Below are positions 825 to 21,192 of a stretch of DNA of 64,000 nucleotides, in pieces. Each line of letters starts with the position of its first letter. The first letter of the stretch is position 1. The stretch lies in assembly GCA_903903985.1 (NCBI GenBank), contig CAIVAT010000090.1:1-64000 (forward strand), in the 5' to 3' direction. A program made the position numbers and the translations under genes. The notes beneath the pieces are model-generated. The model saw nothing but the letters and a program-made list of their open reading frames with translations, was not told the DNA's origin and did no database searches. Origin of the DNA: an uncultured Bacteroidales bacterium. GTDB lineage: Bacteria > Bacteroidota > Bacteroidia > Bacteroidales > FEN-979.

Positions 825-948
825 ATAAAACGCACCATCAAACCACCTTCCGCCGTTTGGGGTTGATCCCCTTATGCTATTGGCATTCAAATAAATGAGC
901 TGGTCAGGTTGTACAGGCGAAGGCTGGTTATTCCCGGTGGTTTTTTCT
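825..948. repeat. Palindromic MITE-like element, copy 1
   Basis: The ~124-bp element has two imperfect inverted arms. Each arm carries an outer A-rich end, then two tandem CCACC/TGACCA-type units about 24 bp apart with a CGCCG core. Left arm core CCACCTTCCGCCG is at 842-854; right arm core AGGCGAAGGCTGG is at 914-926. Its right end abuts a decayed radC fragment, as if the element had inserted into or truncated that gene. Confidence 0.7.
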
Positions 949-951
949 GTT

Positions 952-1071
952 TGCGAGCAAAAATATATATCCCTATATATTTGAGCATGTAAGTATGTGA
1001 ATCAATGGAAAAACGCCTGTCATCCCGCCATCCAATCGCGTTCATGCCAATGAGTAAAAGACAGTGAAATC
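952..1071 (-). pseudogene. radC-like gene remnant 1
   Basis: On the minus strand this stretch encodes FHCLLLIGMNAIGW, which lines up with the F-x-x-LLLN-x-x-N-x-x-x-G segment before the catalytic JAB motif of RadC proteins. The DNA is closely similar over ~120 bp to 10796-10912, which precedes a recognisable RadC JAB domain. The catalytic half is absent here; the palindromic element at 825-948 begins where the coding match stops. RadC-like proteins are JAB/MPN putative metalloproteases often carried on mobile DNA. This copy cannot be functional. Confidence 0.45.
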
Positions 1072-1258
1072 CTTGATTTGCATCCATGTTTTGCGTATAT
1101 TTGGGAAATGACAGGGGGTTAATGTCCTTGACGCTATAACATTTCTCCTTTTTCCCCTTTTCCACTGCCAATTTCCACCCAGACAGTGACCCCTAGAATG
1201 GCTGTGTCATACTGGATTAAAAATCAATATGGGGTCAATAATCCAAAAAATCGTGGAT

Positions 1259-2743
1259 ATGAAAAAGTTCTACATCCTTGTGATTGCGCTGTTATTGGTT
1301 AACGGGGCAAGGGGTCAGCATTCAATCCCTGCAAGGTCAAATAATGATTTTGGACAAAGAAGACCTACAACATTGAATCTGCAACATCGCACATTCAATT
1401 CAACCGAAAATATCCAGGGTGTGATGGAAAATAATGATTGGAACACATTCAACACCCATACGGAAAAAGATTTAAGACAATCAATTAACCATCAAATGCC
1501 AAATCAAGGCTCACTAATCCAAATAAATGACAGCATCTGCTATTGGCAATGGGACACACTCAATATTGGATGGAAGGTTGTATTAAAAAGCATAAATATG
1601 GTTTATGATGCCCAAAATAATTTGATAAGTGAATTATATAAAAAGTGGAACAGCAGCGCCTGGGAGAATGTCAGGCAATACTTTTATGCATATGATGCAA
1701 ATAATAATCAGATAAGTGATTTAAGCCAATATTGGAACGGCAGCGCCTGGGAGAATGACAGTCGGCACACCTCAGCCTATGATGCAAACAATAATCTGAC
1801 AATTGATTTAAACCAATATTGGAGTGGGAACGACTGGGCTAATGACAGTAAACGCATCTGTACTTATGATGCAAACAATAATCTTACAAGTAAATTATAC
1901 CAAAACTGGAACGGTGGCGAATGGATGAATTTCTGGCAAAACATCAATACTTACGATGACCATCATAACCAGACAGGTGAAGTAAACCAAAGATGGGTAA
2001 ATTCCGCATGGGTGAATGAATCGCAATACATTCATACTTACGATGTCAACTGGAACCGGACCAGTGATTTATTCCGGGAGTGGAACGGCAGCACCTGGGA
2101 AAATTCTTCGCTCTGCGGTTATACTTTCGATGCCAACAATCATCGGACTAGCCAATTATACCAAAACTGGAACGGAAGTGCGTGGGAACCTTACGGGCAT
2201 ACGTTGTGGATTTATGATGCCATCAATAATCTAATAAATCGATTGTACCAAACGTGGAATGGAATCACCTGGCAGAATGCTATGCAATACCCCTGTACTT
2301 ACGATACCAACAATAACGAGATAAGTTCATTGGTGCAATATTGGAACGGAACCGCCTGGGTGAACTCTTCGATAAACACTTCTTCTTACGATGCCAACAA
2401 TTTTAGAATGAGTAATATGCTTAAATCCTGGAATAGTGCTGGTGAAATAGAATACGGCGACAGCACACGCTATTATTTTCATACTGTTCTTGGAATAAAT
2501 GAATTGATGGCGCAGGGAAGAGGTATTGTTGTTTATCCCAATCCGTCGTCGGATAAAATCACAATTGAAACTCCCGCCAAAGGCGGCCTCTCCATCCTTA
2601 ACATCAAAGGGCAGCAACTCATCACCCGCAAGGTCACCGGGCCAAAATCCCAAATTGACATCAGCACGCTGCCCATCGGGGTTTACTTAGTTCGGGTGAC
2701 GGGTGACCAGACCGTGCAGGTGGAAAAGTTCATTAAACAATAA
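1259..2743 (+). CDS. Secreted repeat protein with T9SS C-terminal sorting domain
   Basis: The start at 1259 is preferred over an in-frame ATG 30 bp upstream because it puts a signal peptide (MKKFYILV...ARGQ) at the very N-terminus. Residues about 114-400 consist of ten tandem 29-residue units of the form YDANNNxxSxLxQxWNGxxWxN; the tenth is degenerate. The C-terminal ~75 residues carry the T9SS type A sorting module (YPNPSSDKI, then GVYLVRVTGDQ and a basic end), which sends proteins through the type IX system to the cell surface. The repeats resemble Bacteroidota YD-rich surface repeats, but I cannot name a binding target. Palindromic elements lie on both sides. Confidence 0.85.
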   Translation: MKKFYILVIALLLVNGARGQHSIPARSNNDFGQRRPTTLNLQHRTFNSTENIQGVMENNDWNTFNTHTEKDLRQSINHQMPNQGSLIQINDSICYWQWDTLNIGWKVVLKSINMVYDAQNNLISELYKKWNSSAWENVRQYFYAYDANNNQISDLSQYWNGSAWENDSRHTSAYDANNNLTIDLNQYWSGNDWANDSKRICTYDANNNLTSKLYQNWNGGEWMNFWQNINTYDDHHNQTGEVNQRWVNSAWVNESQYIHTYDVNWNRTSDLFREWNGSTWENSSLCGYTFDANNHRTSQLYQNWNGSAWEPYGHTLWIYDAINNLINRLYQTWNGITWQNAMQYPCTYDTNNNEISSLVQYWNGTAWVNSSINTSSYDANNFRMSNMLKSWNSAGEIEYGDSTRYYFHTVLGINELMAQGRGIVVYPNPSSDKITIETPAKGGLSILNIKGQQLITRKVTGPKSQIDISTLPIGVYLVRVTGDQTVQVEKFIKQ

Positions 2744-2780
2744 GATTCCAGTAGCAGAGTGCTTTTCTTTGCTAAACCGG

Positions 2781-2902
2781 ATAAACACAGCATCAGGCCA
2801 CCTTCCTCCGGTTGGGGTTGATCCCCTTATGCTATTGGCATTCAATTAAATGAGATAGTAAAGTTGTTCCGGCGAAGGCGGGTCATTGCTGGCGTTTTTT
2901 CC
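2781..2902. repeat. Palindromic MITE-like element, copy 2
   Basis: This copy is very similar to copy 1, including the central spacer TTATGCTATTGGCATTCAA. The arms are CCACCTTCCTCCGG near 2799 and CCGGCGAAGGCGGG near 2870. It starts about 40 bp after the stop codon of the T9SS repeat protein. Confidence 0.75.
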
Positions 2903-2981
2903 ACTCTGTTTATCAAGGGTGGCCATTAAACTAAAACCCAGCACATATGAATTTATGCAGCTTTCATTCGCCAATCAAGAG

Positions 2982-3647
2982 TTATTTCGTCTGTCCGGCA
3001 AGTATCGGACTCTCAAAAACATTGTTATAAGCATAATCGATAATTCGCAGGGTATCATTATGCTGGCTGCAATATATCTTGATCCATCCATACTTATGCT
3101 TATTTTCTATTGGGAATCTAAAACCCAGGTATCTTTCTCCTTTTCCCTGAAACTGACCCGCATTAAGGAAAGTCCCCAAAACAGATGTCCCATTTGTCCA
3201 GTTGCCGTTTTCCGATATTTTGTCATTAAATAGCAGCGCATCAGGATAATGAAATGTCGAATTATCAAGAATTTCCACCATCATGGGAATTGCCCTTGCG
3301 GCCAGAGAATCAAACGATTGTGGAAGCCCGCCTGGATTAAACTGATTTAAGTCAATGATCTCAAATCCAATGTCAGCAATTTTGTCGTCATTCAGATCAA
3401 ACTGTTTCTGACCGGTCGAAATAAACTCAGAACTAATCGTTCCGGATAAGATACTGTCAATGTGCTTTGATATTTCATCATCGCTTTCCATTAATTTCCC
3501 GACATCCCTGATCACCACATACTCTTTGCTAACAGGCTGATAAACAATGCTTTTATCGTTGTTGTCAGCGTTCTTGTTGCAGCTACTGATTGCAAAAACA
3601 ATTACGATTAGCCACAAACCCATTTCATTTGAATTTTTCATTTTCAA
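2982..3647 (-). CDS. Putative lipoprotein of unknown function
   Basis: This is a 221-residue protein with a short hydrophobic N-terminus followed by a lipobox-like ISSC with the cysteine near residue 23, so it is probably a lipid-anchored envelope protein. An acidic segment DLNDDKIADIGFE looks like a calcium-type DxNxD loop. The C-terminal block (YLGFRFP...YGWIKI...IDYAYN) matches a module common in Bacteroidota and PEP-CTERM-type secreted proteins, where YGWI... is followed by ...DYAYN. No catalytic residues can be named. It is convergent with the T9SS repeat protein, with a palindromic element between them. Confidence 0.75.
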   Translation of the reverse strand: MKMKNSNEMGLWLIVIVFAISSCNKNADNNDKSIVYQPVSKEYVVIRDVGKLMESDDEISKHIDSILSGTISSEFISTGQKQFDLNDDKIADIGFEIIDLNQFNPGGLPQSFDSLAARAIPMMVEILDNSTFHYPDALLFNDKISENGNWTNGTSVLGTFLNAGQFQGKGERYLGFRFPIENKHKYGWIKIYCSQHNDTLRIIDYAYNNVFESPILAGQTK

Positions 3648-3784: not shown

Positions 3785-3905
3785 GGGGTGATATGGGATA
3801 CGCCGATGGCCCTGACCATCTCAGGTCATTTAAATTGACCACTCTTATGGATTGATTGTTAATCTGATCATTGGGTCTGAAGAAATCGGCACAAAGGGGT
3901 CAGGA
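3785..3905. repeat. Palindromic MITE-like element, degenerate copy 3
   Basis: This is a weaker match. The left side reads CGCCGATGGCCCTGACCATCTC and the right side GGGTCTGAAGAAATCGGC followed by AAAGGGGTCAGG. Spacing of the TGACC units and overall length agree with the other copies, but the arms have decayed. Confidence 0.4.
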
Positions 3906-4264
3906 TGTCTGTCCTGTCCAAAACCAGCTATTCTCTGCCATTTGAGGATTTTCTAAAATAAGCAAGCCGACCACTATGCCCACCGTAACAGGCTCATTTG
4001 GGTTTATACAGCCACGTTCATGAGTCGCAATAATTGCAACATAGCAGGGTTTATTTTGCAATTTCTCAGAAATCCATCTGTTGGAGCAATAAAAAAACGT
4101 AGTTTTTGAGTGGGGAGTTAAATCCCTGGTTCAATTTTAGATATTATGCAAAAACCCGAATACACATCTTGAATAGCAATTATATTTCCCCTGAATCCTG
4201 AGGTACTTTTGGATAGAAATCAAATAATCAGTAAAACCATTCAGTAATCACAGATTCTCAGAAC
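3906..4264. other. Gap without a recognisable gene
   Basis: Apart from the degenerate element just before it, I see no coding frame, RNA gene or clear promoter in this A/T-rich stretch. Confidence 0.5.
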
Positions 4265-5380: not shown

Positions 5381-5444
5381 CCTCTATTTCTTCTTCGGCG
5401 GCACCGTAGGAAAAAACGTTACTTCAAATGTCCTGTTGTCAGGT

Positions 5445-5570
5445 GGAAAAAACGCTTGCTTTGACCAGATTTCACCTGAGCAATCCAACGATTTCCCCTT
5501 GTTGATTGTTAAGAAGATAGGGTGGTCAACATAAATCGGCAGAGGGTGGTCAAGAATTCCGGTGTTTCCA
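5445..5570. repeat. Palindromic MITE-like element, copy 4
   Basis: Outer ends GGAAAAAACGC (5445) and GTGTTTCC (5562-5569) are inverted. Inside are TTTGACCAGATTTCACCTGAG on the left and, on the right, GGTGGTCAACAT followed by CGGCAGAGGGTGGTCAA. It lies between the acetyltransferase gene and the convergent VSIN-module gene. Confidence 0.7.
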
Positions 5571-5695: not shown

Positions 5696-7870
5696 TCATT
5701 TTTGCAAAGGTGTGGCCTTGTTACTTTGCTGGCCTCCTGCAGCAGATGGTTTTAACAAGTCTTCTATCACTTTCTTATAAGGTGACGGCTTCATGTTTTG
5801 TGTTCCAGTTCCCTCCCCTTTACCTGAAGGGGATCTGGCTCCTGAAGCCTGGTCGGTCCCATTTACTTCTGTATTGTGGAAGCCCGGCTGATTCTTGTTT
5901 AGCGGTGTGACCGGCTTCGGAATTACGGTTTCTTCAGCCGGTTTATTCGGGTCCGGCAACGTGGAGGCATGCTTTCCAACCACCAGTTTTCCACCTTCAT
6001 AGTATAACCCTTCGCCATTTGTTTTGGTATCCGCATCATTATGTAATCCACGCGACATATTCTGAGTATAATTGCTTTCAATTACTTCCCTGGGCAAGGC
6101 AGGATGTTCATAGCCAGCCCGCTTGCCAATGGCAATATAGGATACCGTTACAGAACTTTTTCCGTCATTGTTTTCCACTACTTTAAATCCTTTCCCTGAA
6201 ATTTCCGAAAGGTAAACGCCATTCGAGTTGCCGGTTGGTGTAACCGTAACTACCACCGGTGTTTCGGATGAAACAGCTGAGGTGAAAGCGGGATCAAAAT
6301 CTACACTGGTTTTGCCGTTGGAGAGTGTCGCATACCCGCTGGTTTGAATGGTAACATCGGTTGATACACTGGTATAAAGAACAGTGTTGGTATTTGTGCC
6401 ATTATCCTGCAGGTGTACATCCAGGTTATTTTTAAATACAACGCCATTTGAATACGATGCGTAATTACTGCCTTCAGCATAAACTCCGTAAACCTTCCCA
6501 TGGATATCGGCACCCATCAGCTCTCCCCAGGCCCCGATTCCTATCCCGGTATTTGCCTGGCTGCTTTTTCCGCTACCGTTTGCATAGCTGGTGAAATAAC
6601 CACCATAATCCGTACCTGCGCTGTTTTTATATCCCAGCGATCCCCAATAATAACCACCCTGTTCCGCACCCAATATGCCTCCGCAACGGGTATTATCGTT
6701 GTAATTGAATCCAGCTGTGCCAAAGGAGTATAAATCACCCCAAAAGGAATAGCCCTTGCTTGCACTGTTGCATAAATAATAGGCATATCCTGCACCATCG
6801 TGAACCGAATTGCGCGTTCTGTAAGCATAAATATTCGATTGTCCATTGCCATCTAAAGGATCTTCCACATGATAAAAATAATTGGGAAACGCTGAACTGT
6901 ATCCCAAATTACTCTGACCGTTATCATTATAATTAACCTGCAATTTTGAGGTTGGAGTATAGGTGCCAATCCCTACATTCCCACCTGCTTCCTGCAGGAT
7001 GAGTGGATTAGTGCCCCCATAAGAGCCAAGAGTAAGATAAGCAGCGGAGGGTGTAGCAGTGTTCGTGCTCCAGTAAAGATATCCCTTATAGTCCAGACTC
7101 TGTCCTATATATAAGATGGCATTCCCGTTGTCATCTCCAATAGACACATTGGTACTTGCATTCCATGCGCTGACAGGTGTTCCGAATATTCCCGTATAGC
7201 TGGAAGGGGTTTCGGCAACATGAAGGGTGCCCGCAGGAACTATATTCCCAATACCGACATTGCCACCTACCGGCTGAAGTATCAGCGGATTCGTCCCGTT
7301 ATAGGTTCCTACCCAGAATTGAGCAGTGGCCGGAGCTTGATTGTAATTCCAAATGAGAAATCCCTTATTGGTCATAGACTGACCAACATACAGGAGGGCA
7401 GTATTGGCATCATCCCCGATGGATACATTGGTCGCACCACTATATCCGAGGATATTAGTGCCGAATAAAGCGGTAAACCCAAGACTTTTCGCAACATGGA
7501 ATGATGCCAAGGGGTTAGAGGTACCTATTCCGACATTTCCTGCATTGTAGTAAATGCTGGATCCATTGTTCAGCCACTGGCCGGAATTGCTGCCAATTAA
7601 AAGCCACAACGGAAGAGCAGGTGTGCCTGAATTATAATATAAACCCGGAATTCCATCCGTTTGATAGATCGTAAGCCCTGTTGCCGGAGTTGTAATGGCA
7701 TTTCGATCGGCCTGGGTCATCCGGGGAGCGAGGAAGCCTTTTGTGGTGCTTTTTATATCCAGCATGGCAGAGTTATCCGGAGCGCTGCCATCGGCGTTAA
7801 TGCTAACCTGCGCAAAAAGGCTGATTCCTGAAAACAGGAACAAAGTTAAAAAGGCAAAGAAATTTTTCAT
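5696..7870 (-). CDS. Large secreted VSIN-module protein with NVGIG repeats
   Basis: This is a 724-residue exported protein with a signal peptide at 1-21 ending in FAQ. Residues about 22-95 form a module ([20 protein letters not shown], then GFLAPRMT...RNAI...GLTIYQTD) that recurs almost unchanged at the N-termini of the proteins starting at 9572 and 14075. Next come several NVGIG-x-x-x-P motifs, each preceding a beta-rich ~90-residue block, as in phage tail-fibre-like and Bacteroidota adhesin proteins. The last ~85 residues are Pro/Lys/Gly/Thr-rich and probably unstructured. No T9SS sorting domain is visible. It probably acts as a surface or fibre-like structural protein; a receptor cannot be inferred. 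Confidence 0.75.
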
Positions 7871-8025
7871 GACACATGGATTAATTGTGAATAACTAAAT
7901 AGTTTGATATTCAGTGAATTCTTTGCCAAATATAATGATAAAAAGAGGCATTTGCAATTTTGGGAATAGATAACTTCCCTTCGTCAAATCATCAAGCCAT
8001 TATTGTCCTGGATCAGCATCAGATT

Positions 8026-8150
8026 GGAAAAACCATTCACATTAACCACTCTTCGCCGGAGCAACTTTACCATCTCACCAAAATGATTATTAGACCAATA
8101 TGGAGGTCAACATTAACCGGCGAAAGGTGGTCAAATGGTTCGTCTTTTCC
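8026..8150. repeat. Palindromic MITE-like element, copy 5
   Basis: This is one of the clearest copies. The left arm has TTAACCACTCTTCGCCGGAG, then a second TTTACCA unit. The right arm has GGAGGTCAACATTAACCGGC, then GAAAGGTGGTCAA. Outer ends are GGAAAAACC (8026) and CTTTTCC (8144-8150). It sits between the starts of the 5696-7870 gene and the end of the 8167-8991 gene. Confidence 0.8.
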
Positions 8151-8166
8151 AGGATTATCCTTTTCA

Positions 8167-8991
8167 TCATTCCTGTTTTATGGTTTGACAACGAAGTGCT
8201 TTTGCAGTATGCTCAAACATTTTCATAAGGTTGCCATGCTGACCTTTTTCAAGTTCCTTGAAACAGAAAGCAAAATAGGGATTGATATCGTCACCTGAAA
8301 AGGTTTGCATAAAGGAGGATTGCGTGTTATATGATTCATCGACCATCATCCTCAAGATCTTGCTGGGACGGATGAGCCCACTCCTGGCGAATGTTCCCGC
8401 TGCAGTTGTCATATATGCCAATGGAACGATGAACTCTGCCACCGTGATCGGGTGCAAAGTGACTTGCTCATTTACATCCATTAATAACAGGAATGCACTT
8501 TTTTCCCTGAAAAAATTTATAGGGGAACCCTGTTTGAGGGATTCAAGAAAGGAGGTATACAATTCATCCTTTTCAGGTAGTGGCAGGCTGAAGCTCAACA
8601 AAATTCCGGCAGGGTAGTAGATGATGCGTTTCTCATCCTTGCCGGAAGGCTTGAATTTATCTACATGGATGTTTCCCATATCGCAGGTTTTCCTGGTCAG
8701 ATAATCAAAAATCTTGTCGGTGTCAAAGCGCCGGGAGACGAAATCATACGTTAACGCCTTGTTCAGATCGGGATACCAGCTCGTTCCATGGGATTCCCCG
8801 TGCAGATGCGTTTGCAACTCACAGCGGTTCTTATCCCAGATAACCTTGTGAACGACCGAACCATCACAATCCAGGAAATACTCCGCCGTGATGACTTCGT
8901 TTTCAATCCTGACACTGTTTTCATTGAGGATTCCATACCCAAGGTATGCGGGAAGCGCGCGACCCGAAAAATTCAATTGTTTTGTTTCCAT
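8167..8991 (-). CDS. Hypothetical cytosolic protein
   Basis: The 274-residue open frame has no signal peptide, membrane segment or motif I recognise. Its composition is ordinary for a soluble protein, with regular alternation of charged and hydrophobic residues. It begins METKQLNFSGRALP and contains a HLHGESHGTSWYPD segment rich in His and Gly. The stop lies 17 bp from a palindromic element and the upstream 230 bp hold no gene. Coding potential is judged only from length and composition. Confidence 0.6.
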   Translation of the reverse strand: METKQLNFSGRALPAYLGYGILNENSVRIENEVITAEYFLDCDGSVVHKVIWDKNRCELQTHLHGESHGTSWYPDLNKALTYDFVSRRFDTDKIFDYLTRKTCDMGNIHVDKFKPSGKDEKRIIYYPAGILLSFSLPLPEKDELYTSFLESLKQGSPINFFREKSAFLLLMDVNEQVTLHPITVAEFIVPLAYMTTAAGTFARSGLIRPSKILRMMVDESYNTQSSFMQTFSGDDINPYFAFCFKELEKGQHGNLMKMFEHTAKALRCQTIKQE

Positions 8992-9224
8992 AGCAATAAG
9001 GTTTAAAGGTTAAACATCATTGCACCAGGAAAACTCAGCGGAAGGGACAGGGGGAAATGAAAAAATCGAACCCTTTTGACCTTATGTCCGCATCGTTTTG
9101 CCACCGTGGCGTTCGAGGCTCGGTTGGCACCCATTGAAGGGTTCTTGATGCTGCTGCAAAGATACTATGGGATATACCTGATCCGACAAATATGGGAAAA
9201 TAAAGTGTTTACAGAAAAGTGTGA

Positions 9225-9345
9225 CAAAAAGCAGCATCATGCCACCTTCCGCCGTTTTGGGTTGACCCCCTTATACTATTGGCATTCAGTTAAATGAGAT
9301 GGTCAGATTGTTCCCGTGATGGCTTGTTGCTGCTGGCGTTTTTCC
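9225..9345. repeat. Palindromic MITE-like element, copy 6
   Basis: The arms are CCACCTTCCGCCG near 9242 and the inverted GGTCAGATTGTTCCCGTGATGG near 9300. The central TATACTATTGGCATTCAG is nearly that of copies 1 and 2. Its right part encodes the last ~19 codons of the small frame at 9290-9430. Confidence 0.75.
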
Positions 9346-9571: not shown

Positions 9572-10459
9572 ATGAAAAATTTAGCCGTTGTAATTGCTTT
9601 GTTTCTGCTTATAAGCAACACATTATTTGCACAGGTAAGTATCAATACCGAAAACAGTGCACCCGACTTGTCGGCCATCCTGGATTTAAAATCCACCGCA
9701 AAAGGATTTCTGCCACCAAGGATGACCACAGTCCAGCGAAACACGATTGCTTCTCCTGCCGAAGGATTGGTTATTTACAACACCGATGAAAAAGCACTGA
9801 ATGTTTACAATGGCATTGTCTGGAACTCAATGGTACCCATCCCTGCTTTTAGCTGCGGGTTAACCATCAGCATCAACCACGTGGTTTCAGGCGGCGTTGC
9901 GCCTGTAAATAAAACAGTTGCCTATGGCACTGTGAACGGAATTCCCGATGAACTTAGCAAGTGCTGGATTACCAGCAATCTGGGCTCCGATCACCAGGCA
10001 ACTGCCGTGGACGATGCAACTGAAGCTTCAGCAGGCTGGTACTGGCAATTTAACCACAAACAGGGGTATAAACATGACGGTATAACCCGCACTCCAAATA
10101 CAGAATGGATAACCAGCATCAGCGAAAGTTCAGACTGGATGACCGCCAACGACCCATGCAATATCGAATTAGGCGCCATGTGGCGTATCCCTACTTATAC
10201 AGAGTGGCATAATGTTCTCATCACCGGCGGCTGGACTTCATTGTCTGACCCATGGAACTCTGGTTTAAGATTGCACGCTTCCGGGTTCCTGGGCTGCAAT
10301 GAGGGTTCACTGAACCAATGTGGCTCAGGCGGCTACTACTGGAGCAGTACACAGGTCGGTGCACTTTACGGCTGGGGCATGTACCTCGAAAATGGGGGCA
10401 TCGACATGTATAACAGCAACCAAGCGTACGGCTTCTCCGCCCGCTGTGTGCGAGACTAA
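9572..10459 (+). CDS. Secreted VSIN-module protein with FISUMP domain
   Basis: The 295-residue protein has a signal peptide at 1-21 (ending LFAQ). Residues about 22-80 are the same VSIN...SAPD...PPRMT...GLVIYNTD module found in the 5696-7870 and 14075-17071 products. The C-terminal ~200 residues end in GGYYWSSTQ...YGFSARCVRD, the hallmark of the Fibrobacter succinogenes major paralogous (FISUMP) domain, a C-type-lectin-like fold. WRIPTYTEWHNV is another typical element. It is probably an exported binding protein. The whole gene sits between palindromic copies 6 and 7, with radC debris on the downstream side. Confidence 0.8.
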   Translation: MKNLAVVIALFLLISNTLFAQVSINTENSAPDLSAILDLKSTAKGFLPPRMTTVQRNTIASPAEGLVIYNTDEKALNVYNGIVWNSMVPIPAFSCGLTISINHVVSGGVAPVNKTVAYGTVNGIPDELSKCWITSNLGSDHQATAVDDATEASAGWYWQFNHKQGYKHDGITRTPNTEWITSISESSDWMTANDPCNIELGAMWRIPTYTEWHNVLITGGWTSLSDPWNSGLRLHASGFLGCNEGSLNQCGSGGYYWSSTQVGALYGWGMYLENGGIDMYNSNQAYGFSARCVRD

Positions 10460-10463
10460 TAAT

Positions 10464-10912
10464 TCAAGCAATCGGTTTTTTGACCCATGGCGCTTTATTG
10501 CCACTTGCCGGTTTTATAATTAACCCACTGAGTTTGACAAAGAACCAAAATGATAGTGCACCGCCAGCGGCAAACAAATAGAAACCATCATCTGTGACAA
10601 TAAGATGATCCCAAACAGCGGGTTCTAAAAGTAAACCAGCATTGACACGTTTCCTGTTGATTGTCTGATCAGCTTCCCTGGGAATGAAATTTCCCGAAGG
10701 ATGATTGTGCACCAGGATTATTGTCACCAGTTCATGGTAATATTTTTTAGTGATAATTCTGCAAGCATGTCTGAAAATTCCATCATCCACCGTTCGCGAG
10801 CAAAAATATATATCCCTGTACATTTGAGTAAGTAAGTATGTGAATCAGTGGAAAAATTCCTTTCATCCCGCCATCCAATCGCATGAATCCCGATGAGTAA
10901 GAGACATTAAAT
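10464..10912 (-). pseudogene. radC-like gene remnant 2 (JAB domain), frameshifted
   Basis: The minus-strand frame ending at 10464 carries the RadC catalytic block: IILVHNHPSGN (metal-binding HxHPSG), followed by WDHLIVTDDGFYLF. The upstream part (CLLLIGIHAIGWRDE, 10850-10912) is in another frame, so at least one frameshift separates the halves. No proper N-terminal helix-hairpin-helix region is present. RadC JAB proteins are common cargo of mobile and defence-rich regions; this copy is broken. The C-terminal tail after the JAB domain is longer than usual and probably out of the original frame. Confidence 0.65.
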
Positions 10913-10934: not shown

Positions 10935-11098
10935 GTTTCCCGGGATATCAGGGAATATAAATTCAGCTTATTTTACAGATGCAGATACGGGGTATGCTGT
11001 TGGCGGTTTTCAACAAGTGGACAGTTCTTTAAGCTATAGGATTCCAGTCGAAATGTACTTTTCTTTGCTAAGAACAAATTTTCCAACTGTTCAGAACT
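10935..11098 (+). pseudogene. Fragment of a BNR/YCF48-like secreted protein
   Basis: One frame reads NINSAYFTDADTGYAVGG. The F-T-D-x-x-T-G-Y-A-V-G pattern is typical of YCF48/BNR beta-propeller repeats in Bacteroidota secreted proteins. The frame is open from about 10950 to a stop at 11096-11098 but lacks the rest of a propeller. It appears to be a scrap left after deletion. Confidence 0.4.
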
Positions 11099-11118: not shown

Positions 11119-11243
11119 AGAAAAATCGCTTGCACTGACCAGTCTTCGCCGGAACAGCCTGGCCATCTCATTTGATTGATATTTAATTTCATAAGGTGGG
11201 CAGCCCAAACCGGCGGAATGTGTTCGGATGCTCTGGTTTATCC
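11119..11243. repeat. Palindromic MITE-like element, copy 7
   Basis: Left arm: CTGACCAGTCTTCGCCGGAA, then CAGCCTGGCCATCTC. Right arm: GGTGGGCAGCCCAAACCGGC, then GGAATGTGTTCGG. The outer ends agaaaaatcg and ggtttatcc are A/T-rich inverted matches. Confidence 0.75.
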
Positions 11244-11500
11244 ACCTTCCTTTTAACCCGGCTGATTTTTCTGTGATGGTTGTAAAACCCGTTCCCGATC
11301 AGATGGAGGAGTGCAAACAGGAACAGATCGTTGTCGTGCCGCCAAAAAGCGCCTTCGGCATGGCCCTGACGTGCATACTCCAGCTCCGGCTGATTAACTG
11401 CACCCACTGCTGCTCGGGGCTAAAATAAAACACACCGGCTTTGTGAAGGATGCGAATACGCGAACAATCAAATACCCACTCAATCCTTGAAAAACCTTTA

Positions 11501-11610: not shown

Positions 11611-13524
11611 ATGAAAAATCACTTACACATCATCATGACACTGATCTGGCTCGCCACGACGTGCCAGATCGCTGTTTCGCAGCCGAAACCCTACCTGCAG
11701 ACTCCGACGCCAACGTCGATATACATCAGCTGGCATTCGACGGACACGGCTTTTACACAGGTCCGGTACGGGAGCTCCGCTTCCGCCCTGACCAGCCTGA
11801 CACAGGGCTCATTCCTGAACAACTCCGGAAAGATCTGGCACACCGTGAAGCTCACCGGGCTGACGCCGGCGACGACCTACTTTTACCGGTGCATCAGCGG
11901 CGCCGATTCGTCAGCGGTCTTCCCGTTCCGGACCCAGCCCTCGTCATCGGCCCCAGGCCAGCATGTCAGGTTTGTGGTCGTCGGAGATTCACGCAACAAC
12001 GACACGATCCCGACCTACCTCCCGGTCGTGTGCGAAAACATCCTGCAGACCCTGGTCGCAAAATACGGGGCCGATTGGTACAACTCGGTGAACCTGGTCA
12101 TGCATACTGGCGATGTCGTTTGGTCGGGGTCGGATATTAACCGGTTTGAACCCGAATATTTCACCCCGATCGCAAACCTCTCCTGTTCCGTTCCCTTCAT
12201 GGTCTCCATCGGGAACCATGAGCATGAATCGCCCCACTATTTCAATTACATGAAATACACCGATTTCACCGACCCGGAAATCCAGACGACCCGGTTCAAC
12301 CAGCGGTTCTACTCCTTCCGGATCCTGAATTGCGAATTCCTCGGACTCAATTCGAACTCCGGCCTGGTGAGCGAGTCGCTGCAGCATGCCTGGCTCGAGA
12401 AGGTCCTGGCCATCTCTGACACCAGCAAAGCCGTGGACCTGGTGTTTCCTTTTTCCCACCATCCGTACCGATCGGCCGTTTGGCCCGAGGGTGATGGCGA
12501 TTCCGTGAAGATCGTATTTTTCAGCACCTTCGAGAAATATCACAAAGTCGTCCAGTACTCCTGTGGCCATGCGCATTGCTACGAGCAGGGTGTGTGGGAA
12601 CTCACCCAACTCCAGGCGAACCTCCAGCATGGCCTGAGGCTGTTGCTGTCGGGCGGGGGTGGGGCGGAGCTTACCCGCTTCGGCACCCATTCAAGGAACT
12701 ACCCGGAAATCATCAAGGCCATAGATGACTATTGCTACGCGATCATCGATGTGGATGTTGATGCGAAATCCTATACCGCGGAAGCCTATACGCTGGGCAA
12801 ACCGGAACACCCGATCGCCAACAAAATTTTCGACACCTTCCATTTCAGGATGAACCAACCGCCTCCGGCGCAACCCCAGTTGTTGGAGGTGAACGGATGG
12901 AATCCCCTCTTTCTGAATTCCTCGCCCATGTCGGGGACCGATTCATGCATGTCGGCCGAGATCCAGGTCACCCTCACGCCAGGTGACTACACGAACCCGG
13001 TGCTGGACACTGTCAGGAACATCGAAAATGTTTTCGAAAACACCGGATCACCCGATTTCACTCCCATCAACAAGAATGCCGGGATAAACCTCTACTCCTT
13101 CAAGGTGCCCGAAGGGAAGCTGGATTCGAACGCCCGGCACGGTTTCCGGATTCGCTACCGCGACATGAACCTGAAGTGGAGCCCCTGGTCGGAAGAAAAG
13201 CTGATCTATCCAAACGGTATGGCCAAGATGCCGGCCGTCGTTTCTGGTGACCTGGTTTTGTGGCAGAACCATCCGAATCCGTTTGCCGGCGGCACGACCG
13301 TGAACTATGATATCAGGACCGCTCAGCATATCGCCGTTACGGTTACGGATCTTTCCGGTCGGACAGTTTATGGGCCGGTAGACCGCAACCTAAAGCCCGG
13401 CCGATACAGCCTGGAAATCCCCGGCGAGGGGAGCGAGCTTTCCCCGGGAATCTATTTCCTGCGGCTGAAGGGGGAACATTCCACCGCCATCATCCGTATG
13501 GTGAAAGCCGGGAGCGGACGGTAA
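11611..13524 (+). CDS. Secreted purple-acid-phosphatase-like metallophosphoesterase with T9SS sorting domain
   Basis: The 637-residue protein has a signal peptide (1-23) and a fibronectin-type domain (about 25-110), as in purple acid phosphatases. The metallophosphoesterase domain that follows shows all metal ligands: GDSR near 124, TGDVV near 166, GNHEH near 200, SHHPYR near 282 and GHAHCYEQ near 318. The C-terminal ~80 residues form a T9SS type A module (NHPNPFAGGTTVNYD ... GIYFLRLKGE). It should hydrolyse phosphoesters outside the cell. The gene is clearly more GC-rich than its flanks and uses many GCC/CTG/CGG-type codons, suggesting recent transfer from a higher-GC relative. Confidence 0.85.
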   Translation: MKNHLHIIMTLIWLATTCQIAVSQPKPYLQTPTPTSIYISWHSTDTAFTQVRYGSSASALTSLTQGSFLNNSGKIWHTVKLTGLTPATTYFYRCISGADSSAVFPFRTQPSSSAPGQHVRFVVVGDSRNNDTIPTYLPVVCENILQTLVAKYGADWYNSVNLVMHTGDVVWSGSDINRFEPEYFTPIANLSCSVPFMVSIGNHEHESPHYFNYMKYTDFTDPEIQTTRFNQRFYSFRILNCEFLGLNSNSGLVSESLQHAWLEKVLAISDTSKAVDLVFPFSHHPYRSAVWPEGDGDSVKIVFFSTFEKYHKVVQYSCGHAHCYEQGVWELTQLQANLQHGLRLLLSGGGGAELTRFGTHSRNYPEIIKAIDDYCYAIIDVDVDAKSYTAEAYTLGKPEHPIANKIFDTFHFRMNQPPPAQPQLLEVNGWNPLFLNSSPMSGTDSCMSAEIQVTLTPGDYTNPVLDTVRNIENVFENTGSPDFTPINKNAGINLYSFKVPEGKLDSNARHGFRIRYRDMNLKWSPWSEEKLIYPNGMAKMPAVVSGDLVLWQNHPNPFAGGTTVNYDIRTAQHIAVTVTDLSGRTVYGPVDRNLKPGRYSLEIPGEGSELSPGIYFLRLKGEHSTAIIRMVKAGSGR

Positions 13525-13530
13525 GCCTTA

Positions 13531-13654
13531 GAAAAGCCGGAGTTCCTGACCTCCTCACGCCGATTTTTGTGGACTGCCTTATCCTTTTTACAATTAACAA
13601 GGGTAGGGGATCAGATTGCTCCAGCGAATAGAGGGCAGGGTGAGCGTTAGCGTG
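13531..13654. repeat. Palindromic MITE-like element, copy 8
   Basis: The left arm is CTGACCTCCTCACGCCG with a second TGGACTGCC unit; the right arm is GGGGATCAGATTGCTCCAGC, then GAATAGAGGGCAGG. It starts only about 7 bp after the stop of the metallophosphoesterase. The right outer end is placed by length analogy with the other copies. Confidence 0.6.
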
Positions 13655-14074: not shown

Positions 14075-17071
14075 ATGAAAACGTTTACTGTTATTGTGGT
14101 ACTTGTATTCATTTCAGTTTTACAAACTCTTGGACAGGTTGGCATTAATTCCGACAACAGCGCGCCGGATGGTTCGGCCATGGTCGACGTCAAAGCAACT
14201 GATAAAGGGATGCTGATCCCCCGAATGACCCAGGCACAGCGCAATGCGATTAGTTCTCCCGCCAGCGGTTTACTGATTTACCAGACTGACATTGCCCCCG
14301 GGTTTTATTATAATTCCGGCACCAGTGGCAGTCCTGCCTGGATGATGCTTGTGACAGGCACCGCCTGGAGTTTATCCGGAAACAACCTTACCGGGAGTGA
14401 ACTTTTTGGTTCTGCGAACAGCCAGCCCGTGAAGATCATCAGCAACAACAGTGAACGGATGCGCATCACGGAAACCGGGAATGTCGGCATCGGGGTCTCA
14501 GACCCTGCACAGAAACTTTCCTTAGGTTCGCCTTCAGGGAATGTGGCAATCCAGTTGTTTTCAGGCGGGGTTAATCCGCCGTCACCGGAAACGAATCCCT
14601 CCGTGGCGGTGAATAATGCTTCAATCGGCGCAGTCGCATGGTTAAACCCTGCCAATGTACTTACCAGCAACGATTTGTATGCCCAGGGTTCTTTCAGCGG
14701 TACTTCCGCTTCAAATTATCTTCAGGTTTCCGGTTTTGGATTCGCAGTGCCGACCTATGCCGTTATCACCGGGATTGAAGTATTGATCGAGCGCAATTCC
14801 CCGGTAAGCAGTACCATCCAGGACAATATTGTGAGCCTGGTCAAAGGCGGTACGATCACCGGGGATAACAAAGCCACACCGGCCTTCTGGGCATCCGCCG
14901 ACGCTGATGTTTCTTATGGGGGAAATTCAGTTTTATGGGGAACTTCGTGGACACCTGCAGAGGTGAATGATGCAAATTTCGGAGTGGTGATATCAGCCAG
15001 TTCAAATGCTGTCTCCATTGCCAATATTGACCACATCGGCATCAAAGTTTATTATTCCAATGATTACAACTGGACGGCAGGGCTTGATGTGAGTGATAAC
15101 AATCGTTTTAAAATATCCTCTTCGTCGTCGCCGGGCACAAACGACAGGTTGTCGATCGGACTGGATGGCAATGCGAAATTCACCGGCAGGGTGCAGGGCC
15201 AGAACGCGCAGGCAGACGATGAGTTTATCACCAAAGGGCAACTGGCGGCTAATTCCTGGTCGCTCAAAGGGAACACCGGAACCGATCCGTCCACTGACTT
15301 CATCGGCACGACCGATGGTGCAATCCTGAAGTTTAAAGTCAATAATATTGTATCCGGTATAGTTGACACTATATTAAGTAATTCTTCTTTTGGCTACAGG
15401 ACCCTTGTTGCCAATACATTCGGATCTTTAAATACCGCCATTGGAGATGAAGCGCTTGCATCTAACACAACAGGATCTTTCAACACCGCCAATGGATGCG
15501 AAGCGCTTAAGCTAAATAAAGGAGGAATTGAAAACACTGCCACCGGGTATCAGGCACTTGGTTCCAATATATCGGGAGCAAATAATACCGCCAATGGAAT
15601 GGAGGCACTTTACCTTAACTCAACAGGAAATAATAATACCGCCAATGGAGTTAGCGCACTGGTTTCCAACACTACCGGGTATGACAATTCTGCAACCGGG
15701 GTAGATGCGCTTTTTTTGAACAACACAGGATACGCAAACACCGCAAACGGGTACCAGGCGCTTTTTACTAATTCAACCGGTCATTCAAATGTTGCAATTG
15801 GGACAAATGCCTTGTACAGCAATACTACAATCAACAACCTTGTTGCCATTGGAGATTCGGCACTTTATAAAAACACAGAAGGGGATGACAATACCGCTAT
15901 CGGCTCAAAAACGCTTTATTCAAATACCACTGGCTTTGATAATACTGCCAATGGATTTAAAGCTCTTTATGCCAATAAATCAGGATTTGAAAATACTGCC
16001 AATGGATACTATGCACTTTATTCCAACACAACGGGATATTACAATACTGCAATTGGATGGTCTTCATTGCAGGAAAATACAACAGGAATTGATAATACTG
16101 CCAACGGAGTTTTAGCACTGTCGTCTAATGAAAGTGGATATAATAATACCGCCAGCGGGAGTTATTCACTTTTAGACAATACAACTGGATATTACAATAC
16201 TGCCAATGGGGCACAATCACTATTCAGCAATACAAAAGGATATGCCAATACCGCAAGCGGGAACCAATCGCTTTTTAATAATTCAACCGGTCATTCAAAT
16301 GTTGCTATAGGGACAGATGCCTTGTACAGCAACACCACGAAAAGTAACCTTGTCGCAGTTGGCGATTCGGCGCTTTTTCATAATGGTACCGGAGCTTCAG
16401 TCAATGAGGCACTTTACAATACCGCAATTGGATCAAAAGCGCTGTATTCCAACACAACAGGATCTGATAATACTGCCAGTGGAGGATTTGCACTTGTCAA
16501 CAATTTAACGGGAAATTACAATACTGCCTGCGGAACTTATGCGTTAAACGTAAATACTGGCGGTTCAATGAACACAGCAATGGGGTATGACGCAATGCGC
16601 TTCTGTTCCGGTTCATCTAATACTGCAATCGGAAGTGTTGCACTTTATAATCTCAGTGCAGGAGATTTTAACACAGTAACGGGGGGTCATGCTCTTCAGA
16701 ACAATAACGGGGGAGACAATAATTGTGCATACGGTTATATGGTGCTTAATGACAATGTTACGGGAGGAAATAACACTTCATTCGGATTTGAAGCCGGGTA
16801 CAAGAACACCGGGAGTGGCAATGTTTTTCTCGGGTATGAGGCCGGGTATAATGAAACCGGGGATAATAAACTCTACATTGGCAATTCAGACACTTCATCC
16901 CCGCTGATCGGCGGAGACTTCAACACAGGCAAGGTGACCATCAAAGATGTACTGAGACTTCCTCCAAAAGCGGCGGCGCCCTCCAGCCCGGCCACCGGAG
17001 AAATATATGTCAGCTCCACCAACCATATCTATTGCTACCTTGGAGGAACCTGGAAACAACTCGATAATTAG
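14075..17071 (+). CDS. Giant VSIN-module surface protein with 28 tandem 17-residue head repeats
   Basis: The 998-residue protein has a signal peptide at 1-21 and then the shared VSIN...SAPD...[11 protein letters not shown] module to about 95. An NVGIG motif lies near 134. Residues about 165-330 form a beta-sandwich-like domain (GGxITGDNKA, [24 protein letters not shown]...FGVVI) seen in virion and surface proteins. Residues about 448-928 are 28 units of 17 residues with consensus xxNTAxGxxALxxNTTG, similar to trimeric-autotransporter head repeats. The C-terminus (residues ~965-998) is a short cap. It is probably a fibrous adhesin or tail-fibre-like structure. Units 7-11 resemble units 17-21, implying an internal ~510-bp spaced duplication. 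Confidence 0.8.
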
Positions 17072-17282: not shown

Positions 17283-17396
17283 ATCCCCTGCCCACTTTCC
17301 TCCCGATTGGGTTGACCGCCTTAACTTATAGACAATCTGTAAACGGAATTGATCAGGCTGCTCTTGCGAAGGCTGGTCAATTTGAGTGGTTTTTCC
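17283..17396. repeat. Palindromic MITE-like element, copy 9
   Basis: Left arm: GCCCACTTTCCTCCCGATTG, then GTTGACCGCC. Right arm: TTGATCAGGCTGCTCTTGCG, then AAGGCTGGTCAA and the outer TTTTTCC. The left outer end is less well defined and could extend to about 17275. Confidence 0.7.
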
Positions 17397-17532: not shown

Positions 17533-19521
17533 ATGAAGAAAGTTGTTTTTTTTTCACTGTGTCTTATGGCTTTCGTTTCCTGCTTTGGAAACGTGAGGGT
17601 GTCCACCCTCTTCAGTGACCATATGGTGTTGCAGCGCAACAAAACCATTCCGGTATGGGGCCGGGCCGATCCCGGCGAAAATGTCGTGGTGGAATTCAAC
17701 CGGCAATCAAAATCAGTAATGGCTGACAGCAGTGGGAAATGGAAGGTGCGTTTAGATCCCGAAAAGGAAGGCGGTCCCTTTAAATTAATAATCAAAGCCG
17801 GGAACAAACTTACTTTCCGTGACGTAATGGTTGGAGAGGTCTGGATCTGCAGCGGGCAGTCGAACATGGAATTCATGGTAAAATCTGTTGCGGAGGCAGA
17901 GTCAGAAATAGCGGAAGCAAGCTACCCGCTGATCCGGCATTTTACTGTACCCAAAGAGATCAGCGCCTTTCCGGAAGATGAGTTGAAAGAAGGCCATTGG
18001 GATGTTTGCAGCCCAGAGACCGTTGGGGGTTTTACTGCCGTCGGCTATTTTTTTGCCAGGGAAATCTTCAATGAAATCAACATACCCATCGGACTGATCA
18101 ATGCAACATGGGGCGGCACGGTGGTTGAGACCTGGACCAGTAAAAACACACTGGAGCGCAGCGAGGATTTTGCAGATGTCATGGCGGAGGTAGCTTCCTT
18201 TAACCAAGATTCATTGTTTGAAGCAAAGAAAAGGGCCTGGGAGAAGAATTTATCCCAATTGACCAAAAAGATCGAATCATTGCAGGGAAGCGTCAACAAC
18301 TTCACAGATGCTGATCAATGGATGAAAACGGATATTGATGACAGCAACTGGCCACATATGAAATTGCCGGGCCAGTGGGAAAAACAGGATAAAGGGCTGA
18401 AATACCTCAACGGCTCGGTCTGGTTCAGGAAAGAATTCACCCTGGGCAGGGAGGAGGCAGGAAGACCTGCCAAAATACACCTTGCCATGATCGATGATAT
18501 TGATTGGACCTATGTGAACGGGGTCCAGGTGGGCACTACTGATGTGTGGAACAAAAAAAGGATCTATGAGGTGCCCGGGAAAATTTTATTAAGCGGGAAA
18601 AATGTGGTGGCCATCAGGGCGATAGATGGCGGTGGCGGCGGCGGGATATACGGGAATGCTGCCGATATGCAAATCACCGTAAACCGGAAAAAGATTTCTC
18701 TTGCAGGGAAGTGGTCATTCAAAGTGGATTCAATGTCAGTGAAAATCCAGGGTGTCGAGCCGAATGATTTCCCCTGTTTGTTGTACAATGCCATGATCAA
18801 CCCGGTCATTCCCTATGCGATGCAGGGAGTCATCTGGTACCAGGGTGAATCCAACGCTGTGCGGGCCTTTCAATACCGCAGGGCATTCCCGATGCTGATC
18901 TGGGACTGGCGTGATCATTGGGCAACCGGGGATTTTCCTTTTTATTTTGTGCAGCTGGCAAGCTTTAATGAAGACAATGGCAACAGCAAAAATGGAAGTG
19001 CCTGGGCTGAGCTCAGGGAAGCACAGCTGATGACCTTATCGCTGCCAAATACCGGTATGGCTGTGACTGCCGATATCGGGGATTCAGCCGATATTCACCC
19101 GCTGAACAAGCAGGATGTTGGTAAACGCCTTGCGGCTGTAGCATTAAAGAATGTTTATGGAAAAAATATCGTATGCTACGGCCCCCTCTTTCAATCGATG
19201 GATGTAAAAGGGAACAGAATAATCTTATCCTTTTCCGATACCGGCAGCGGCCTGATGGCAAATGACAAATACGGGTACCTGAAAGGTTTTGAAATAGCCG
19301 GTGCCGACAGCATCTTCCATTTTGCCAAAGCATTCATTGAAGGAGATGAGGTAATTGTATTCAGTGATTCGGTGAATGACCCTGTGGCAATAAGATACGG
19401 GTGGGCCGACAACGCAGGCGAAGATAACCTGTATAACAAAGAGGGTTACCCTGCCAGTCCATTCCGGACGGACCAGTGGAAAGGGATAACGGAAGAAGAA
19501 AAATACACCATCGGACTTTGA
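17533..19521 (+). CDS. Sialate O-acetylesterase (SGNH hydrolase), exported
   Basis: The 662-residue protein has a signal peptide (1-20). An N-terminal Ig-like part (VRVSTLFSDHMVLQRNK...PVWGRADPGE) is the standard opening of Bacteroidota sialate O-acetylesterases. The SGNH catalytic blocks are present: CSGQSNMEF with Ser near 110, WYQGESNA near 436, and the Asp/His block DIGDSADIHPLNKQDVGKRLA near 514-530. A galactose-binding-like beta domain (about 260-400) is inserted between the blocks, as in the two-domain family members. It removes acetyl esters from sialic acids or from plant or host glycans in the periplasm or outside. No T9SS domain is present and no sialidase is nearby. Confidence 0.88.
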   Translation: MKKVVFFSLCLMAFVSCFGNVRVSTLFSDHMVLQRNKTIPVWGRADPGENVVVEFNRQSKSVMADSSGKWKVRLDPEKEGGPFKLIIKAGNKLTFRDVMVGEVWICSGQSNMEFMVKSVAEAESEIAEASYPLIRHFTVPKEISAFPEDELKEGHWDVCSPETVGGFTAVGYFFAREIFNEINIPIGLINATWGGTVVETWTSKNTLERSEDFADVMAEVASFNQDSLFEAKKRAWEKNLSQLTKKIESLQGSVNNFTDADQWMKTDIDDSNWPHMKLPGQWEKQDKGLKYLNGSVWFRKEFTLGREEAGRPAKIHLAMIDDIDWTYVNGVQVGTTDVWNKKRIYEVPGKILLSGKNVVAIRAIDGGGGGGIYGNAADMQITVNRKKISLAGKWSFKVDSMSVKIQGVEPNDFPCLLYNAMINPVIPYAMQGVIWYQGESNAVRAFQYRRAFPMLIWDWRDHWATGDFPFYFVQLASFNEDNGNSKNGSAWAELREAQLMTLSLPNTGMAVTADIGDSADIHPLNKQDVGKRLAAVALKNVYGKNIVCYGPLFQSMDVKGNRIILSFSDTGSGLMANDKYGYLKGFEIAGADSIFHFAKAFIEGDEVIVFSDSVNDPVAIRYGWADNAGEDNLYNKEGYPASPFRTDQWKGITEEEKYTIGL

Positions 19522-19873
19522 TGATCATGCGGGCAAAACGGAACACCTGACCATTCTTTGCCGTTTTTGACGTATCACTTCAGCAGGCTACCTTCCAATG
19601 CCCTATGGCAGTCGAATTAGCACTGCGTAAACGGTTCAAAGCGAGCGTTTTTTTACAGCAGCCCATAAAACTTGAATTATCGGAATTACCGGAGTTCAAG
19701 GTCGACCTTGTTCCCGATCGTGACATTGAAAACATGCAACCGAAGGATGCCAGTATCAGGTAACTTGAAAATTTCAAGGGGAACCTATCTTTTCTCTCAA
19801 CACCTGTTTTCAAGTTTTTTTGTCCTCAGGTTGTTCCCAGTGGCACCTTTTTCATCTGAGACCTCCCCGTCGC
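19522..19873. other. Gap with a possible decayed coding scrap
   Basis: A plus-strand frame at about 19583-19762 reads AVELALRKRFKASVFLQQPI and ends ...FKVDLVPDRDIENMQPKDASIR. The VDLVP...-type end is reminiscent of small nucleotidyltransferase domains, but the similarity is too weak to name. There is no start region or complete domain. Confidence 0.25.
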
Positions 19874-20548
19874 TTATTTGGTTTGCTCAGTACTTTTACC
19901 TCCGAAAAGATCGTAAGGTTTTTCACCAAACCGGTCATGCATTAAATAAATTGTCAGAAAAACGAACACGATAAAAGCCAGCAACGTGAGGAACTGACTT
20001 ACCGACGTTTTTTGAATATCCTGTTTTTGTTTTACATCACAAACTTCACCCGGGCAGTACTGTACTTTGTCTTTAAAAAAGAGGGGGTAGAACATACATC
20101 CCAGGCAAATCCCAAAAGCCGATTCAAAGAACAGGAATACGAGACAAATAAGGCAGATAATACCTGTAATCGGACTATAGGCATTTACGATGATAAAAAA
20201 CACGAACATAGTGCCAGACAATGCCACCCCGATGATCCAGGCAAACTTTTTCTGGGCAGCTCCGACATATTCAGGTGTTTGATTGCGAACAATCAGCCGC
20301 CCCAAAATCAGGGTAGGCGAAAATTTGGGATTGATAAAAACCCTGATCAGGAAATCCGTGAGAAAAATGGTTATGATATACTTGATCGGAACAAAGTTCC
20401 CTTTGAATACGATGAACATCAATGAAAGGAATGTGCCTAGAAACAGGATCCCTGCGGCCGCCCTTATTTCCCGCTCGTTTAAAACCGGGATGTTAAATCC
20501 ATCCACTTCTTCACCGAATTTGATTGTTTTATTCATATTTGTTTTCAT
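19874..20548 (-). CDS. DUF4395 family membrane protein
   Basis: The 224-residue protein starts with a cytosolic segment GFNIPVLNEREIRAAAGILF, typical of the DUF4395 family, followed by about five hydrophobic segments. The family motif CLGCMFYPLFF is present near residue 150. The conserved cysteines in this motif and in YCPGEVC suggest redox or metal chemistry, but no activity is established. The second ATG (four codons in) is an alternative start. It has no obvious operon partner. Confidence 0.85.
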   Translation of the reverse strand: MKTNMNKTIKFGEEVDGFNIPVLNEREIRAAAGILFLGTFLSLMFIVFKGNFVPIKYIITIFLTDFLIRVFINPKFSPTLILGRLIVRNQTPEYVGAAQKKFAWIIGVALSGTMFVFFIIVNAYSPITGIICLICLVFLFFESAFGICLGCMFYPLFFKDKVQYCPGEVCDVKQKQDIQKTSVSQFLTLLAFIVFVFLTIYLMHDRFGEKPYDLFGGKSTEQTK

Positions 20549-20720
20549 GTCAGGTTCAGATATTTATCATTGAATGTATGATTGGTTGATGCGTAACAGG
20601 GATTAAAAGATTTCCTTCTCCGAGACCGTTCAGGCATTCTCATGAGTTTCGAGCAATTATCGAGGGTTACCACGGGTATTTCAACTTAGGATCAGGACCG
20701 CCAAAAGTACATAAATAGGT

Positions 20721-20842
20721 GGACAAAACCAATCACAGGACCGCCTTTCAACGTTTATTGTTGTCCGCCCACCCTGGTTAGCGTTTAAAGAACTGATATG
20801 GCCAGGCTGCTCCGGTGAAGGCAGTTGAATCGGGTGTTTTTG
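20721..20842. repeat. Palindromic MITE-like element, copy 10
   Basis: Left end: GGACAAAACCAATCACAGGA, then CCGCCTTTC and a second TTGTCCGCCCACC. Right: GATATGGCCAGGCTGCTCCG, then GTGAAGGCAGTTGAA and the outer GTGTTTTTGC. The arms are more decayed than in copies 1, 2, 5 and 6, but the length is the same. Confidence 0.6.
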
Positions 20843-20936
20843 CTATTAGATTATCGTGTACGGAGGCATTATGGGTAAGATGGCCAAATACTTTTTCAGC
20901 CAAATGAAGTTCTTCCTGTTCATTATCTTATATCAT
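20793..20936 (-). pseudogene. Decayed relative of the 46-residue frame at 9290-9430
   Basis: After ATG and an immediate stop codon the frame reads NEQEELHLAEKVFGHLTHNA, which matches EREQKTLQLAKKIFEHFTQDA at spaced positions. A later shifted frame reads LPSPEQPGHI, the element-encoded tail. Both copies run into a palindromic element at the same place. Confidence 0.35.
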
Positions 20937-20991
20937 TTTGCCAATTGTAAAAATTCTTATTTAGAACAGTTCTAATTTAAAGAACATGTTG

Positions 20992-20999
20992 TATATTTG
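20992..20999 (+). promoter_or_regulatory. Candidate -7 box (TATATTTG)
   Basis: This is an exact TAnnTTTG match, but about 280 bp upstream of the next gene (21280). Palindromic copy 11 lies between them, so the element may have entered the leader of the TPR gene. Confidence 0.3.
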
Positions 21000-21068
21000 T
21001 ATCAATTCACATTCCATATCCTGATTCGTCGGGTTGAAGCTTAAGGATCAGGAATGTGTTTTCATACC

Positions 21069-21192
21069 GGGAAAACCAGAGGACCTGATCACCCGCCACC
21101 GATGTTGATTGGCCATCCAGCTTTCATAAAAATCAATCGGGGAAGGTGGTCAGATTGCCACGGCAAAGACCGGTCGATGCGAATGTTTTATC
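21069..21192. repeat. Palindromic MITE-like element, copy 11
   Basis: Left: GGGAAAACCAGAGGACCTGA, then TCACCCGCCACCGA. Right: CGGGGAAGGTGGTCAGATTG, then CCACGGCAAAGACCGGTCG and the outer GAATGTTTTA. It lies between a candidate promoter box and the TPR gene start. Confidence 0.7.

Follow-up and report, generated by a model that had tools for sequence, protein, structure and literature searches.

What are the short palindromic repeats that lie between the genes of one contig of an uncultured Bacteroidales bacterium, and how did they come to be there? The window analysed here is the 64,000-nt stretch at positions 1 to 64,000 of contig CAIVAT010000090.1 (C90 of assembly G000, GCA_903903985.1), which belongs to a 5.2 Mb assembly of 195 contigs with a completeness of 87% and a contamination of 3.76%. 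The analysis indicates that the repeats are probably non-autonomous elements, resembling miniature inverted-repeat transposable elements (MITEs), that are made of both ends of an IS21-family insertion sequence (IS). The existence of the family in the window is confirmed. In particular, a scoring profile of 147 copies finds 12 places at 42.6 to 106.1 bits, while the next place scores 6.2 bits and the best of 20 dinucleotide shuffles of the window reaches 15.2 bits, well clear of the chance level at which the initial annotation would have given up the family. All G000 rows had been removed from this profile, which guards the scoring and not the discovery: the remaining rows had been found and aligned partly with the removed ones, and the copies in other genomes were found with models trained on the window.

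The element is 127 bp long, rather than the approximately 124 bp first estimated, and it begins with TGG and ends with CCA. Across genomes these boundaries are conserved and sharp, whereas their absence would have refuted the initial annotation; the information outside the edges is close to zero in 92 copies. There are 215 matches in 104 loci (1.43 Mb), 167 of which span the whole model, and the 163 unique full copies have a mean pairwise identity of 64.5% and a length of 126–127 bp in 150 cases (range 123–139 bp). Each arm of the consensus carries two TGACCA boxes (the four start at positions 19, 43, 80 and 104), with 31 bp separating the inner boxes. Just 20 of the 163 copies have an exact match in all four boxes; where an arm does have two exact boxes, their spacing is the 24 bp proposed initially in 100 of 107 arms. 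Some copies have a left tip of the right-end type, and half copies also occur, several of which end near the centre. The 163 copies represent a short, many-copy element without a transposase gene, again as first described.

The resemblance to IS21 ends, suggested in the initial annotation, was examined in family f1 (43 genomes, including G000), where IstB (PF01695) is present in 21 genomes at an E-value of 1e-20, with 39 places listed. Nine of the 30 scanned IstB places, covered mostly around their right ends, show element-arm matches at E ≤0.05. These nine regions, chosen for their arm matches, were compared at larger size together with three contrasts (L259–L261). Arm-like sequences stand at both outer ends of the istA-istB pair, tips outward, in seven of the nine chosen regions, at one end only in L254 and L258, and in none of the three contrasts. 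The right end of the IS best matches the element's right arm in four of the seven (L251, L253, L255 and L257) and its mirrored left arm in three (L250, L252 and L256). The left tips are TGG in all seven, and the right tips are CCA (four), GCA (two) or ACA (one); the six IS with both tips measured are 2,723–2,743 bp long. Aligned without gaps to the element consensus, seven left arms have an identity of 0.56–0.69 and six right arms one of 0.55–0.65, compared to a mean of 0.26–0.27 and a maximum of 0.50 for shuffled left arms, a control that covers the left side only. In the two elements checked against Pfam, both contain IstB and the Mu-transposase C-terminal domain of IstA, and one also has, for IstA, an rve match below its cut-off; the istB frame of L252 (G001) is interrupted by a stop. 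Overall, the alignments give good evidence that the IS arms and the element share common ends, which is distinct from evidence of direct parentage.

Further, pairs of copies that are 92–96% alike occur within each of six genomes (G027, G006, G013, G237, G009 and G028) in flanks that, read by eye, are unrelated, and therefore point to recent movement. The findings establish that the element is mobile, has IS21-type ends and lacks a transposase. Both the movement and the likeness to IS21 ends disfavour the explanation that the repeats are immobile host sites, such as terminators or protein-binding sites, maintained by selection. That explanation would accommodate the fixed length, and it draws support from the position of the elements: in 58 gaps between co-directional genes, they lie nearer to the 3′ end of the upstream gene (median relative distance 0.21, p = 3.6e-5), a bias that promoter avoidance would also be expected to produce. 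Also in its favour, folding of 60 sampled copies as RNA gave z-scores below −2 in 36 cases for one strand and in 30 for its complement. In contrast, the search for a conserved RNA structure yielded seven predicted pairs, one with two-sided change, and no covarying stem; no Rfam family covers any copy, and there is no significant orientation with respect to genes. A rule in which the 3′ ends of genes face the element's right end, striking by eye in the window, was tried and rejected, both for all neighbour sides of 161 copies (75/62 versus 63/75, p = 0.15) and between co-directional genes (30 versus 17, p = 0.08). Immobile host sites are thus considered very unlikely.

Several observations weigh against an IS21-derived MITE. 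IS21 transposition creates target-site duplications of 4–8 bp. The search for such duplications suggested by the initial annotation gave nothing convincing in 142 copies: exact repeats of 3 bp and of 6–9 bp are absent, and there is one repeat each of 4 bp (0.46 by chance) and 5 bp (0.16 by chance). Likewise, the 81 copies scoring at least 100 bits have no exact repeat of 3–9 bp, and only one of six related IS copies has a repeat (4 bp), while ten of ten sequenced IS21 insertions described in passages of PMC10122671 have 5-bp repeats. The length is also far more rigid than that of a textbook MITE, in spite of the low identity among copies. Some IS end matches are weak, such as the left end of L256 (10.6 bits, E = 0.014), and because the arms are only 55–69% identical to these IS, a direct parent has not been found. 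A matching IS21 was not found in G000 itself, within its assembled 87% and with a partial match on contig C144 left out; around its sole full IstB (C70), the IS21 right end, the only one in the stretch covered, is without such boxes. Moreover, in raw counts the number of elements does not visibly follow the presence of IstB: G013 has the most element matches and no IstB, and G034 and G042 have IstB and no element.

The complementary search for empty sites, also suggested initially, found no true or clean pre-insertion site among the candidate pairs compared, which also weighs against an IS21-derived MITE. In 55 cases where another genome lacks the element, homology was scored as resuming beyond it in two. 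One candidate so scored, L086/L135, is unconvincing on inspection. In L118/L120, the element-free sequence retains a TTTTCCA tip, so that the pair fits equally well with loss of an element via a T-run repeat. L079/L162 is not a clean insertion, as 208 bp including the element stand opposite 11 bp, with extra unshared bases on both sides. The flanking bases themselves have a symmetric bias, with A scarce directly before TGG (19/154) and T scarce directly after CCA (17/154) in raw counts. The original proposal of MITEs of the IS21 type is consequently upheld in its ends and its sharp edges, and it lacks the target duplications, the pre-insertion site and the resident IS21 that a simple case would offer.

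How would such elements move? Presumably, judging from the likeness of their ends, they would be moved in trans by the IstA and IstB of an IS21 with like ends. According to passages of PMC10122671 and PMC11208146, IS21 ends consist of paired repeats 23 bp apart that are synapsed by an IstA tetramer, and PMC10122671 includes in vitro products of two like ends. In the proposed layout, the outer and then the inner box of the left end are followed by a centre of some 20–30 bp and by the right end, with its inner box first and its outer box last. The four boxes would be bound by IstA, pairing both ends of a very short element in one tetramer, after which IstA with IstB would join the CA-3′ tips to new DNA. 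A need for the two ends of so short a DNA to fit one complex in phase may account for the fixed length; that 127 bp holds little beyond the four boxes would also explain it. Missing target duplications could reflect rearrangement (deletion or inversion) at the element edges by the same enzyme, or an unusual joining reaction, and they are the most interesting part of the proposed mechanism. A different arrangement, an inside-out IS21 junction, had been prompted by a match between an IS21 end in L215 and the centre of an f76-type copy in L118; it was dropped for the main family because the IS21 ends of family f1 are seen in normal orientation. In family f76 (L118 9211–9338, L210 approximately 8347–8420 and L215 approximately 7629), element-like and IS21-end-like sequences occur with three tandem boxes, and the IS21 end matched by the L118 element's centre lies beside a short istA-like open reading frame (ORF), a call made by eye.

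The profile scan of the own and related genomes places the element in 36 of the 43 genomes of family f1 (E = 1e-3, G000 included). Among 295 genomes drawn from the order, seven match at E = 1e-5; four of these are outside the family, and only G237 is strong. Among 395 genomes drawn from the phylum, G000 alone matches at E = 1e-6. One exact element pattern, matched by 10 of the 92 known copies, occurs in sixteen named stretches, all from uncultured Bacteroidales or Bacteroidetes metagenome-assembled genomes; the same restricted pattern has 0 matches in viral_contigs, and one window copy compared with phages and plasmids by distant blastn has no match. A phage or plasmid home was rejected on these two results. 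The "one 20-kb region" of the initial annotation holds within the window, while G000 as a whole has 21 strong copies (E < 1e-15) on 7 contigs. Six of these, on contigs C85, C126, C53 and C12, have twins in G007, a genome of another genus, recognised by equal scores or, for C12, by identical flanks; because of this twinning, the four contigs may be mis-binned. Separately, an identical stretch is common to contig C53 of G025 and contig C116 of G019.

The copies are strongly clustered. Neighbours within 6 kb are found for 18 of 27 copies in G013 (1.5 expected), 16 of 20 in G025 (0.9 expected) and 9 of 23 in G006 (1.4 expected); in G030, a separate count from the list of places, outside the scripted test, gives 2 of 11. 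The 27 distinct places in G013 correspond to 46 matches, doubles included. Clusters with genes between copies, together with one-gene segments that are common to different genera and stop at element edges, could suggest integron-like cassette sites, in which a tyrosine integrase would recombine DNA at the elements and the intervening genes would be cassettes. Integron attC sites are likewise palindromic, intergenic, clustered and similar in length. A single-strand bias in G237 (8 of 8 matches) and on contig C66 of G025 (10 of 11), and weaker tyrosine-recombinase matches in all 43 family genomes, are compatible with this idea. It is contradicted by the absence of the attC end boxes (consensus RYYYAAC and GTTRRRY) within 25 bases of the ends of all 163 copies on either strand, by an integron-integrase model whose cut-off is passed in one of the 43 genomes, by neighbour orientations that are not significantly biased (52 same, 34 opposite, p = 0.066) and by edges that match IS21 ends. 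Cassette sites of this kind are extremely improbable.

Alternatively, a pair of adjacent elements could move jointly with the gene that they enclose, as composite units, the clusters then being cassettes shuffled by IS21 enzymes. Besides the clustering, 11 inter-element segments have an end-to-end match elsewhere (both ends to within 135 bp), where random placement gives 2.8 (maximum 9 of 300); two of these segments are counted doubly, as L086 and L088 are the same contig and L136 appears twice. At the same time, tighter limits leave 3 against 0.41 (35 bp) and 1 against 0.08 (15 bp). L068 offers a similar case, in which a 163-bp segment has been duplicated along with an element, edge to edge. 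The two L068 elements (7375–7497 and 10309–10435) are 90% alike and their shared 163-bp flank 99% alike, so the element has changed faster than its flank. Opposing joint movement, the outer flanks of 135 neighbour pairs share one 4-bp repeat (0.47 expected) and none of 5 bp or more, and the loss of synteny around elements is not significantly above that of other gaps of similar size. In particular, synteny is kept in 1 of 48 gaps with an element and 31 of 144 others (p = 0.0007), and as short gaps are progressively removed the counts become 1/45 versus 15/106 (p = 0.04), 1/42 versus 10/85 (p = 0.10) and finally 1/38 versus 5/68 (p = 0.42), at which point synteny breaks special to elements were rejected. 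Composite units are accordingly judged quite unlikely.

A broader version, in which the 127-bp elements are the joints of a gene-shuffling platform run by IS21 enzymes, is also unlikely, if somewhat less remote. The element would then be a ready-made pair of IS21 ends, and IstA and IstB acting within a cluster would delete, invert and re-join the genes between. Such a platform would explain the clusters, the missing target duplications, the cross-genus one-gene segments that end at element edges and the deficit at L162, where the copy (7706–7832) lies within a 146-bp stretch for which L183 and L070, which have the same sequence, carry 1,185 bp, over 1 kb more DNA. Of 407 ends of shared homology, 19 lie no more than 5 bp from the edge of an element, compared to 3.1 for random intergenic placement (maximum 9 of 200). 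However, breaks at element edges would also be expected if the elements had simply inserted next to genes in fluid islands. The platform, if it did exist, would act as a gene reservoir like that of an integron, with no integrase involved.

The favoured explanation, a MITE-like element built from IS21 ends, finds its closest relatives in two known systems. As in the IS21 family (IS21, IS5376; IstA/IstB), the tips are TG...CA and each end has at least two repeated boxes about 23–24 bp apart, and in related genomes similar arms bound istA and istB; unlike IS21, the element is gene-free, 127 bp rather than about 2.7 kb, and lacks a 5-bp target duplication. Like MITEs of bacteria such as MITEPsy3 (102 bp, PMC6053426), it is short, intergenic, transposase-free, present in many copies and bears the ends of a larger IS; it differs from them in having no target duplication, a very rigid length and strong clustering. 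The searches made of the open literature gave no description of an IS21-derived MITE, nor did the IS21 passage of PMC3189936 or passages of PMC6053426 (subscription papers and ISfinder being outside this scope), and the review of prokaryotic MITEs PMC10969869 does not contain "IS21"; portions of PMC9208149, PMC12755819 and PMC4608216 also entered the comparison. Published IS21 assays, in the sections of PMC10122671 concerned, use complete ends of 55 bp, and the element, with two arms and a centre in 127 bp, is approximately two IS21 ends back to back. It raises testable questions about the minimum length of an IS21 donor, the reason for a fixed length and how an IS21-type element can sit without a 5-bp repeat, and it marks variable gene islands in one family of uncultured Bacteroidales.

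Within the window, the twelve copies are distributed over both strands. On the forward strand are copies 3 (3796–3920, 50.9 bits, diverged and with a left tip of the right-end type), 4 (5444–5570, 106.1 bits), 5 (8025–8151, 92.3 bits) and 7 (11120–11244, 102.5 bits). The reverse strand holds copies 1 (823–946, 80.4 bits), 2 (2783–2903, 85.4 bits), 6 (9223–9344, 73.6 bits), 8 (13531–13648, 71.2 bits), 9 (17283–17396, 71.7 bits), 10 (19531–19653, 50.0 bits), 11 (20720–20841, 42.6 bits) and 12 (21069–21192, 71.3 bits). Copy 1 is 84% like copy 2 and 80% like copy 6. Copy 5 lies approximately 15 bp past the stop of gene 8167–8991 (−), copy 8 is 5–7 bp after the stop of gene 11611–13524, and copy 10 is approximately 9 bp after that of gene 17533–19521. 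The ten clear copies and one weak copy reported initially are all present with correct coordinates, the weak one being copy 3; a first profile built from them had scored the ten at 90–116 bits and the weak copy at 56 bits. The count of eleven was one short, as copy 10 (26.5 bits with the window-trained profile) had been missed. The statement that no copy lies from 23 to 64 kb was right, the 147-copy profile finding none there.

Other features are interspersed with these copies. A SAM-I/IV riboswitch (9062–9156, −, 54.6 bits) lies upstream of gene 8167–8991 (−), whose 274-aa protein has no Pfam match, and most of the riboswitch falls in a block that is conserved in L080 (78%). Of the two copies of a second repeat (120 bp, 86% alike), the one at 949–1068 begins at the border of element copy 1, and the one at 10792–10911 shares bases with the start of a short ORF that has a RadC domain (10464–10823). 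A shorter repeat (2727–2775 and 11023–11071, 82% alike) adjoins an element in one case and lies approximately 47 bp from one in the other. Finally, two large proteins contain tandem coding repeats, with units of 87 bp at 1602–2364 and 51 bp at 15375–16683, and the protein with the former repeats carries a Por secretion tail.

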